A program made the position numbers and the translations under genes. This document shows, piece by piece, positions 3,561 through 45,692 of a stretch of DNA of 64,000 nt. The stretch comes from Sphingomonas sp. Leaf242. Its GTDB lineage: Bacteria > Pseudomonadota > Alphaproteobacteria > Sphingomonadales > Sphingomonadaceae. The notes beneath the pieces are model-generated. The model saw only the letters and a program-made list of their open reading frames with translations. It did not search any database and was not told the DNA's origin. Numbering within the stretch: the stretch's first letter is position 1; the number at the start of each line of letters is the position of its first letter. The stretch covers positions 256,972 through 320,971 of the forward strand of contig NZ_LMLW01000001.1 in the NCBI RefSeq assembly GCF_001422045.1, given 5' to 3'.

Positions 3561-3619
3561 TTGTTCTCCCGCGAAGGCGGGAGCCCAGTCTGGATCCCCG
3601 CCTTCGCGGGGAAACAAGC
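3561..3619. repeat. Palindromic repeat pair, family PR-A
   Basis: Two hairpins face each other: TTCTCCCGCGAAGGCGGGAG and, inverted, CCCCGCCTTCGCGGGGAAA, with CCCAGTCTGGAT between. Near-identical copies occur at 45721-45776 and 48863-48923. It lies between two convergent genes. Confidence 0.9.
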
Positions 3620-6519: not shown

Positions 6520-6629
6520 CACCACCCCGGCGAAGGCCGGGGCCCAATTGGGAAACGATCAGTGTTGAAGCGCTCCGCTCCGTTATCGAAACCTTTCCAA
6601 CTGGGCCCCGGCCTCCGCCGGGGTGGTGC
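6520..6629. repeat. Palindromic repeat pair, family PR-B
   Basis: Left arm CACCCCGGCGAAGGCCGGGG followed by CCCAATTGGG, right arm its inverse (CCAACTGGGCCCCGGCC then TCCGCCGGGGTGGTG), about 45 nt spacer. Same family as the repeats enclosing the nuclease gene at 9000 and copies at 13339, 41232 and 45587. Confidence 0.92.
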
Positions 6630-7733: not shown

Positions 7734-7745
7734 CCGACCCCTCCC

Positions 7746-7826
7746 GTCATCCTGACGAAAGTCAGGATCCAGAGCCACAGGCGACGTCGTTCATTACTCT
7801 GGATCCTGACTTTCGTCAGGATGACG
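7746..7826. repeat. Palindromic repeat pair, family PR-C
   Basis: Left arm CATCCTGACGAAAGTCAGGA + TCCAGAGCC, right arm CTCTGGATCC + TGACTTTCGTCAGGATGACG, spacer about 25 nt. It is the most frequent family in the window (7 copies). It fills the zapE-mdh gap. Confidence 0.93.
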
Positions 7827-8956: not shown

Positions 8957-8988
8957 GTTCCCCGGCGAAGGCCGGGGCCCAGTTGGGA
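8957..8988. repeat. PR-B left arm of a nuclease-bearing element
   Basis: GTTCCCCGGCGAAGGCCGGGG followed by CCCAGTTGGGA. Its inverse lies at 9300-9336, and the only thing between the two arms is the GIY-YIG gene. The trailing GGGAGA acts as ribosome-binding site for that gene. Confidence 0.92.
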
Positions 8989-8999
8989 GAACTCCCGAG

Positions 9000-9296
9000 A
9001 TGGATACCGCCTTCTGCGTCTACATCATGGCCAGCAGGCGGAACGGGACTATCTATCTCGGCGTCACCAGCAATCTTCCCAAACGCGTATGGGAGCATCG
9101 CAACGGTGTCGTCGCAGGGTTCACGAAGAAACATGGTTGTCATCTGCTCGTCTGGTACGAGGTTTATGACGATCTGGACGCCGCCCGGCAGCGCGAGCTG
9201 CGGATGAAGGAATGGAAACGGGACTGGAAGGTGAAAGAGATCGAAGGGATGAACCCGAACTGGGATGATCTGTTCGATACGCTGACGCCAAACTGA
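9000..9296 (+). CDS. GIY-YIG nuclease domain protein inside a palindromic element
   Basis: 98 residues, a stand-alone GIY-YIG domain of the YhbQ/UPF0213 type. VYI (7-9) and YLG (19-21) are the two signature triplets, Arg29 with WEHR is the conserved basic helix, and Glu66 in ARQRELRMKEWKR is the likely metal-binding catalytic residue. All key positions are intact, so an active endonuclease is plausible. The gene is flanked exactly by facing PR-B arms (8957-8988 and 9300-9336), replacing the short spacer of the solo PR-B copies. It sits between mdh and sucD. A paralogue lies at 14802. Confidence 0.9.
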   Translation: MDTAFCVYIMASRRNGTIYLGVTSNLPKRVWEHRNGVVAGFTKKHGCHLLVWYEVYDDLDAARQRELRMKEWKRDWKVKEIEGMNPNWDDLFDTLTPN

Positions 9297-9299
9297 TCC

Positions 9300-9336
9300 G
9301 CCTTCCCAACTGGGCCCCGGCCTCCGCCGGGGAACA
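9300..9336. repeat. PR-B right arm of a nuclease-bearing element
   Basis: CCTTCCCAACTGGGCCCCGG and CCTCCGCCGGGGAACAAG, the inverse of 8957-8988. It begins 3 nt after the nuclease stop codon and ends just before the AGAGAGAG leader of sucD. Confidence 0.92.
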
Positions 9337-13338: not shown

Positions 13339-13442
13339 ACCACCCCGGCGTAGGCCGGGGCCCAGTTGGGATGGTAGATGTAATTGAGCGAAACGCCGGC
13401 CACTCAGCGTTTCGTAACTGGACCCCGGCCTACGCCGGGGTG
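13339..13442. repeat. Palindromic repeat pair, family PR-B
   Basis: Arms CACCCCGGCGTAGGCCGGGG and CCCCGGCCTACGCCGGGGTG with CCCAGTTGGG / TAACTGGA inner ends. The stem carries a paired change (GTAGGC with GCCTAC) relative to the other copies. Its right end gives TGGAGGAA, the ribosome-binding site of sucB. Confidence 0.92.
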
Positions 13443-14722: not shown

Positions 14723-14800
14723 CGTTCTCCTGCGAACGCAGGAGCCCAGGGTCACGGACACCACCCTCCGTAACCCTGGATTTCTGCGTACGTAGGAAAA
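14723..14800. repeat. Palindromic repeat pair, family PR-D (left of nuclease)
   Basis: Arms GTTCTCCTGCGAACGCAGGA + GCCCAGGGTCA and TAACCCTGGA + TTTCTGCGTACGTAGGAAAAC. The right hairpin has diverged (TCTGCGTACGTAGGA). Its terminal AGGA lies 4 nt before the nuclease ATG and serves as its ribosome-binding site. A second, cleaner copy follows at 15095. Confidence 0.92.
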
Positions 14801-14801
14801 C

Positions 14802-15089
14802 ATGAGGGCCGGTTTCGTCTACCTGATGGCGAGCAGCCGCAACGGAACGCTCTACCTCGGCGTCACCAGCGACCTGCTCGCCAGAGCCTACCAACACCGC
14901 AACCGCCTGATCGACGGCTTCTCCAAGGAGCATGGTTGCATCCTCCTTGTGTGGTTCGAGGCGAGTGACGACATACAATCTGCACGGCAACGCGAGTTGC
15001 AGATGAAGAAATGGAAGCGGGCCTGGAAGATCGACTTGATCGAACAGACCAACCCGCACTGGAAGGATTTGTACGAGACGCTCTTCTGA
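14802..15089 (+). CDS. GIY-YIG nuclease domain protein between two palindromic repeats
   Basis: 95 residues, paralogue of the protein at 9000 (shared pattern LYLGVTSDL, HRNxLIDGFSKEHGC, SARQRELQMKKWKR). VYL (6-8) and YLG (18-20) are the signature triplets, Arg28 and Glu65 the likely catalytic pair, all present. It is bracketed by two complete PR-D pairs, a family found nowhere else in the window, and lies between sucB and lpdA on the same strand. The two nucleases are clearly homologous yet associated with different repeat families, as if each matched its own palindrome. Confidence 0.9.
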   Translation: MRAGFVYLMASSRNGTLYLGVTSDLLARAYQHRNRLIDGFSKEHGCILLVWFEASDDIQSARQRELQMKKWKRAWKIDLIEQTNPHWKDLYETLF

Positions 15090-15094
15090 CTGCT

Positions 15095-15173
15095 GTTTTC
15101 CTGCGAACGCAGGAACCCAGGGTCAAGAACGTCGCCCTTAATAACCCTGGATTCCTGCGTTCGCAGGAAAACA
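15095..15173. repeat. Palindromic repeat pair, family PR-D (right of nuclease)
   Basis: Arms GTTTTCCTGCGAACGCAGGA + ACCCAGGGTCA and TAACCCTGGA + TTCCTGCGTTCGCAGGAAAAC, spacer about 13 nt. The two hairpins are perfect inverses of one another. It starts 6 nt after the nuclease stop and ends 13 nt before the lpdA ATG. Confidence 0.93.
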
Positions 15174-41231: not shown

Positions 41232-41339
41232 CACCTCCCCGGCGGAGGCCGGGGTCCAGTTGGAAAGGTTGCGGAAACGGAGCGTTGCGCGTCGTTAGCT
41301 GCGTCCCCCAACTGGACCCCGGCCTCCGCCGGGGAGGTG
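41232..41339. repeat. Palindromic repeat pair, family PR-B
   Basis: CACCTCCCCGGCGGAGGCCG + GGGTCCAGTTGG facing CCAACTGGACCCC + GGCCTCCGCCGGGGAGGTG, spacer about 42 nt. Confidence 0.92.
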
Positions 41340-45586: not shown

Positions 45587-45692
45587 ACCACCCCGGCGAA
45601 GGCCGGGGCCCAGGTGGGAACGCTGAGTAAGTGGGCGGCGCGCTTCGTTATTGCCACCTCTCCAACTGGGCCCCGGCCTGCGCCGGGGTGGC
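45587..45692. repeat. Palindromic repeat pair, family PR-B
   Basis: CACCACCCCGGCGAAGGCCG + GGGCCCAGGTGGG facing CCAACTGGGCCCC + GGCCTGCGCCGGGGTGGCG, spacer about 42 nt. Followed 28 nt later by a PR-A pair. Confidence 0.9.

Follow-up and report, generated by a model that had tools for sequence, protein, structure and literature searches.

The 98-aa GIY-YIG nuclease encoded in the mdh-sucD gap of Sphingomonas sp. Leaf242 is best read as the dedicated partner of CGTC-type REPs and probably the nuclease that mobilises them, with a logic resembling that of RAYT and an unrelated enzyme. We are confident that the protein family to which it belongs is a partner of CGTC REPs; that the protein also mobilises these repeats we consider likely, with less assurance. 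Throughout the family the genes usually lie beside palindromic arms, arms and proteins diverge together, and gene and arms co-occur across genomes; the protein is under purifying selection with its presumed catalytic residues conserved, and the contents of the gaps vary between genomes. From these observations we infer that the protein recognises, cleaves and moves the DNA of the repeats.

A GIY-YIG gene enclosed by the arms of a repeat family

Within the window (the whole 64,000-nt stretch analysed), an intact ORF on the forward strand (9000-9296, ATG at 9000, stop ending at 9296) encodes a 98-aa protein that matches PF01541 (E 7.4e-14) and no NCBIfam family. It is preceded by an arm of repeat class PR-B (TTCCCCGGCGAAGGCCGGGGCCCAGTTGG, 8958-8986, forward strand) and followed by an arm in the opposite orientation that faces it (9306-9334, reverse strand), confirming the original prediction of a small intact GIY-YIG gene between facing palindromic arms. 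Measured from these arm limits, 13 nt separate the left arm from the start of the gene and 9 nt its stop from the right arm; the predicted distances were 12 and 3 nt, a difference that depends on where the arm end is set. The flanking arms are, as also predicted, those of solo PR-B copies, of which the window holds four dimers: 6523-6625 (45-nt spacer), 13341-13442 in the sucA-sucB gap, which in other genomes holds different elements or is without one, 41235-41336 and 45589-45690. Their spacers measured 44-45 nt, in agreement with the 45 nt originally given.

Counting both strands and allowing up to 2 mismatches, we found 24 matches to the PR-B hairpin core in the window, where 100 shuffles gave 0.95 on average, and the arm pattern recurred genome-wide with 151 forward and 146 reverse matches (297 in all) compared to 0 for a reversed control pattern. 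In the listed PR-B pairs a forward arm is followed by a reverse arm at 59-72 bases, and in the pair that encloses the gene at 346 bases; some arms have no partner. The repeat flanking the gene is thus the local solo repeat, and gene-bearing and gene-less copies have common inverted ends, a feature of a transposable element with non-autonomous copies.

A second GIY-YIG gene on the forward strand (14802-15089, 95 aa, 60% identity to the first, PF01541 E 3.5e-12) had been taken for another gene within a spacer. This was wrong: it is flanked by complete two-arm elements upstream (14725-14800) and downstream (15096-15171), both of a class other than PR-B. A solo CGTC-tagged dimer of 82 nt at 7745-7826 represents a third class. 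In its entire genome Leaf242 has five genes of this GIY-YIG family (a sixth match, L006, with 30% identity, was dropped), and all five adjoin palindromic elements of differing classes. Also common are dimers of a further class whose spacer is very short (~55 nt, ends TGTT...AACA, TCCCGCGAAGGCGGGA arms); they occur in the window at 3564, 45723 and 48867 and also in the stretches of G018, G024, G034 and G058.

Homologues lie beside palindromes across bacteria

We scored a gene as having a hairpin when a perfect hairpin (stem of at least 7, loop of 3-8) was present within 150 bp on either side of it. In the genus, 56 of 61 genomes matched the GIY-YIG gene at 1e-10, and 111 full-length genes were read, weak, short or repeated matches being left out. 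A hairpin accompanied 106/111 of these genes and 23/107 control genes from the same loci, and hairpins were present on both sides of 69/111 compared to 5/107. Furthermore, the flank-to-flank inverted-repeat score reached 20 or more in 73/111 GIY-YIG genes and in 0/107 controls. When flanks were swapped between genes of different genomes this score was still reached in 48/550 pairs, because the arms recur.

The association extended beyond the genus. In the class sample (Alphaproteobacteria, as inferred from named relatives) the gene was present in 37/114 genomes; in other genera of the class a hairpin was found on either side of 51/65 genes compared to 10/49 controls, and on both sides of 27/65 compared to 1/49. 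The phylum sample contained the gene in 113/397 genomes and 72/231 genera, and its 26 further genes, partly from the own genus and family, had a hairpin on either side in 23 cases and on both sides in 16, compared to 0 of only 4 controls. Among named public genomes we took the best 80 of 577 confirmed relatives, counting the 76 with usable flanks and excluding 4 with short ones. These 80 came from alpha-, beta-, gamma- and deltaproteobacteria and from single MAGs labelled Nitrospirae, Elusimicrobia, Uhrbacteria, Bipolaricaulota and others, labels that may be wrong. In this set of the best 80 of 577, a hairpin was found for 24/24 sphingomonad genes and for 50/52 non-sphingomonad genes compared to 19/83 controls, and hairpins on both sides for 33/52 non-sphingomonad genes compared to 1/83. 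Counted by independent site (genus and class, in clusters of similar surroundings), the proportions were 76/90 and 47/188. Homologues therefore usually do have palindromes, in the genus (106/111), in other genera (51/65) and among distant relatives (50/52 among the best 80 of 577).

The layout was more varied than predicted. A palindrome nearby was the rule, but arms directly facing each other across the gene, the layout that the original prediction proposed to look for in each homologue, were scored for 78/256 genes; the remainder had complete dimers, one arm, unoriented hairpins or no hairpin (20/256), and many genes adjoin complete dimers rather than sit inside a split one. Between the stop and the start of the nearest downstream hairpin, the median distance was 10 nt in the best 80 named relatives (65/80 with one) and 20.5 nt in genus and class (128/176), compared to 36 nt in controls (47/276). 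In Cupriavidus sp. AU9028 (L247) a GIY-YIG gene lies just 5' of an apparent sucD start, with arms of another class; this siting may be an old position or a recurrent target. The gene of Azospirillum lipoferum (L357, 1201-1494) lies between sufB and sufC, and in Shinella PSBB067 (L369) an apparent sufC start lies 3' of the gene.

Most arms resemble CGTC REPs

In most arms a CGTC or TGTC tag is combined with an 8-bp stem, a loop of 4-5 nt and a CCA tail, and the arms are arranged head to head. A GTC-tagged arm was found within 200 bp of 107/176 GIY-YIG genes compared to 7/164 controls. Most arms thereby resemble the CGTC REP superfamily (Di Nocera, De Gregorio, Rocco 2013; PMC3733652) in stem, loop, CCA tail, head-to-head dimers and, where it is kept, the tag. 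They have the 8-9 bp stem, 4-5 nt loop and CCA-like tail of that superfamily; since the sequences were chosen for pairing, the stem is not independent evidence and pair counts are not used as evidence. Head-to-head dimers are seen among the listed PR-B pairs, which run forward then reverse, and in the layouts around the genes. The PR-B arms of the window retain stem, loop and tail and are missing the CGTC tag; a relative in the same gap of G011 has it.

CGTC REPs are known from five phyla, including the long-known Neisseria and Rickettsia repeats (PMC3733652). According to the available text of that paper, they "apparently lack a dedicated transposase"; their spread is left open, and no associated transposase is reported and no nuclease partner named there, whereas here a GIY-YIG gene adjoins the arms. 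Such a gene lies beside CGTC arms in four bacteria that the same text names for CGTC repeats: Azospirillum lipoferum 4B (WP_014249537.1, between sufB and sufC), Sinorhizobium meliloti pSymB (UIJ96462.1), Novosphingobium aromaticivorans pNL2 (WP_041550427.1) and Neisseria gonorrhoeae (CGTC-1, which is dRS3). In a plasmid collection, of which 13 of 34 records were read, a CGTC arm was present at 10/13 loci; Sinorhizobium K101 had an arm with another tag, and no arm was found at the other 2 of the 13, Photobacterium GJ3 and Rhizobium tumorigenes.

Arms diverge with the protein and track its presence

For 139/176 genes an oriented arm was available, and we compared arms (edit distance over 23 nt) and proteins in pairs from different genomes at non-syntenic sites. 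Pairs with 35-55% protein identity had an arm edit distance of 9.5-10; this fell to 5.0 in pairs with 65-70% identity (n = 88) and to 1.96 in those with 70-80% (n = 26; 88% within 3 changes). Arms at unrelated sites were thus alike only where the proteins were alike, and GIY-YIG genes of low mutual identity within one genome had unlike arms. Over 61 site clusters the Mantel r was 0.16, a value equalled in 0/2000 permutations and modest because only close pairs have common arms. This co-divergence fits recognition of the arm by the protein, and equally movement of gene and arms as a unit.

Repeat copy number also followed gene clade. In the clade to which the window gene belongs, 21/21 genes had PR-B arms, and the 19 genomes with these genes held a median of 121 PR-B arms compared to 9 (p 7e-6), the TGCTGAAC repeat not being in excess. 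Conversely, another clade of 8 genes had TGCTGAAC-type arms in 8/8, and its genomes held a median of 10 TGCTGAAC arms compared to 0 (p 2e-5), PR-B not being in excess. Shared ancestry explains part of this signal, since clades of 4 and 13 genes whose own arms are not PR-B also come with many PR-B copies (p 6e-4 and 5e-3) and since G011 and G057 have the gene, yet only 2 PR-B matches each. PR-B arms numbered 0 or 1 in all 5 genus genomes without a gene match, and in 7/56 with one.

We also searched an arm covariance model (R1) in the same 114 class genomes. Gene and arms were both present in 30, the gene only in 7, arms only in 16 and neither in 61 (p 8e-10, uncorrected for phylogeny); leaving aside the genomes that supplied model sequences, the counts were 20, 7, 16 and 61 (p 2e-6, likewise uncorrected). 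The corresponding counts for RAYT and arms were 13, 12, 33 and 56 (p 0.25, uncorrected for phylogeny). A PF01797 transposase (RAYT) was not found in the Leaf242 genome, whereas 5/14 control genomes matched, and RAYT was rejected as a hidden partner on both counts. Three genomes are rich in arms without the gene (G093 with at least 67, G148 with at least 66 and G138 with 23), and only UvrC-size GIY-YIG frames were found in them. They may have lost the partner after spread, as stated for RAYT genes in E. coli in the available text of PMC3733652, or may have another partner.

Elements turn over in conserved gaps

The mdh-sucD gap carries a GIY-YIG gene in 22/61 genus genomes. Of the other 39 we searched 36 and read 30 gaps: 11 were short and without an element, 2 held solo or solo-like repeats (G051, G049), 3 held decayed gene copies (G019, G033, G043) and 14 held ~457-1126 nt of other sequence. 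The comparison of syntenic gaps proposed with the original prediction thus revealed presence/absence variation, the gap being empty or holding a solo repeat, a gene or a remnant, depending on the genome. Likewise, the sucA-sucB and sucB-lpd gaps contain, by genome, nothing, dimers of differing classes, a gene or other sequence; in the sucB-lpd gap of G018, G022, G024 and G058, 611-613 nt of other, mutually similar-looking sequence replaces the GIY-YIG gene. In G053, G059, G016 and others, GIY-YIG copies with internal stops or fragments occur alongside intact ones. These comparisons indicate turnover and do not indicate its mechanism.

Neither target duplication nor exact excision was found in 80-kb comparisons of six genomes with 20 junction-spanning alignments, many of which were false because the second genome also contained the element. 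The one usable absence concerned the 7745-7826 element, which is missing at the corresponding place in G024, where the missing stretch is 22 nt larger than the element. No recent jump of the GIY-YIG gene was seen: where a genome has several copies they have diverged from one another, and many sites were inherited. Carriage by phage was rejected, there being no match in a phage collection.

The protein is a conserved minimal nuclease domain

The gene is under purifying selection, with a median dN/dS of 0.15 and all values below 0.5 (187 pairs, 72-98% identity). Residues Y8, Y19, R29, H33, E66, K70 and N85, which we take to be the catalytic positions of the GIY-YIG fold, are conserved in at least 244 of 248 distinct proteins. 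Among solved folds, the predicted structure (mean pLDDT 90.8) most resembles UPF0213 BH0048 (1zg2, E 2.3e-4), with Slx1-Slx4 next (E 0.01 or worse); a sequence search against solved structures returned only 1zg2 (E 0.0068). Slx1 is a branched-DNA nuclease, and kinship of so small a domain with a structure-selective nuclease, as this model suggests, would suit action on hairpins.

The housekeeping-type GIY-YIG proteins examined, of the UPF0213, Slx1 and UvrC kind that includes these nearest solved folds, differ in their surroundings. Four of six small loci from other GIY-YIG subfamilies (L185-L188, L200, L201) were located, and B. subtilis yazA (L401) was added; L187, L188, L200 and L401 are without such palindromes, unlike the present family. 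At a few loci (L186, L184, L397, L398, L400) the genes of a second GIY-YIG subfamily, with the motif RDGSYYVGST, are accompanied by palindromes of a different type (CTCATGCTGAGC...GTCGAAGCATGAGG and CACCTCAGGATGAGGTG-like); at L186 the last residues of the protein are encoded by the repeat itself, and at L399 no palindromes of this type were found beside the gene.

Discussion

RAYT is an HUH transposase thought to mobilise GTAG REPs. The original prediction of an autonomous element and its non-autonomous derivatives, comparable to RAYT and REPINs, holds for the pairing of gene and repeat, which is wider than claimed; mobility would follow by analogy, and the second gene of the window has another layout. 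As with RAYT (TnpA-REP) and GTAG REPs/REPINs, a small enzyme gene lies beside short palindromic repeats, gene-less repeats far outnumber genes, repeat and protein diverge together, and diverged copies occur per genome (for the RAYT side, the available text of PMC3733652 and in part general background). The differences lie in the enzyme, which is PF01541 GIY-YIG here and PF01797 HUH there, as the prediction of a different nuclease class had it, and in the tag, which is CGTC, TGTC or decayed here and GTAG there.

In the mechanism we propose, a minimal GIY-YIG nuclease would recognise the tagged hairpin of its own repeat class, with a CGTC or decayed tag, a ~8-bp stem, a 4-5 nt loop and a CCA tail. 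A small element would be bounded by two such hairpins set head to head; the majority of its copies would be gene-less dimers, and one or a few would carry the nuclease gene, either inside the dimer or next to it. On DNA that is single-stranded or extruded, the nuclease would nick or cut at the hairpin ends and so allow dimers, at a low rate, to be copied or moved into intergenic gaps, much as RAYT, the HUH transposase, may do with GTAG REPs.

Other explanations account for parts of these data. The gene might be a free-standing homing endonuclease, a parasite copied into CGTC dimers that serve as its cleavage and landing site and that spread by other means. GIY-YIG is a classic homing nuclease fold (PMC1564403, in the text available), probable selfish spread is a further likeness, and arm-rich genomes without the gene exist (G093, G148, G138); however, there is no intron or intein here, the protein is a minimal one of 95-98 aa beside a repeat family, many genes adjoin complete dimers and not split ones, and repeat copy number tracks gene clade, albeit confounded by ancestry. 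Since no other candidate mobiliser was found either, the Leaf242 genome having no RAYT match and RAYT showing no association with arms across the class genomes, we consider homing unlikely. Still less probable is a housekeeping nuclease that trims or resolves REP hairpins or cruciforms in replication and is kept near its substrate without moving it. Such a role would agree with the purifying selection (median dN/dS 0.15), with conserved sites such as mdh-sucD in 22/61 genomes and with Slx1 among the next solved folds (E 0.01 or worse), but the gene is patchy (113/397 phylum-sample genomes), decayed copies occur and trimming needs no linkage to the repeat.

That a cargo gene landed by chance between or beside common intergenic repeats had already been judged less likely in the original prediction, on the strength of the second gene at 14802, whose layout proved different. 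The judgement itself stands: the repeats are indeed frequent, and 23/107 control genes also have a nearby hairpin, but 106/111 GIY-YIG genes do, with a similar disparity in distant bacteria, arms and proteins diverge together, and other small subfamilies (L187, L188, L200, L401) are without such arms. The genus, class and named-relative controls rule out chance as an account of the association, and we give it hardly any weight. A partner nuclease that probably mobilises the repeats is thus our preferred reading.

Among the papers listed from the literature searched, a collection with few subscription papers and no bioRxiv preprints, none linked GIY-YIG proteins to REPs or CGTC repeats. In the available text of RepRanger 2025 (PMC12306157) no word begins with "nuclease", and in that of the 2006 GIY-YIG survey (PMC1564403) neither "palindrom" nor COG2827 occurs.

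A named candidate protein makes the spread of CGTC REPs directly testable. To our knowledge, no enzyme of the GIY-YIG class is known as a prokaryotic transposase. With the evidence evenly poised, small GIY-YIG subfamilies could be a new class of bacterial transposition enzyme, each mobilising its own superfamily of palindromic repeats in a RAYT/REPIN lifestyle independent of HUH enzymes; the superfamilies would then, at the same even odds, be the CGTC REPs and, via the second GIY-YIG subfamily, the CTCAG...CGAA palindromes. If mobilisation by the present family is true, the GIY-YIG enzyme class would join RAYT-like systems, and many genes annotated merely as "GIY-YIG nuclease family protein" would gain a concrete role.
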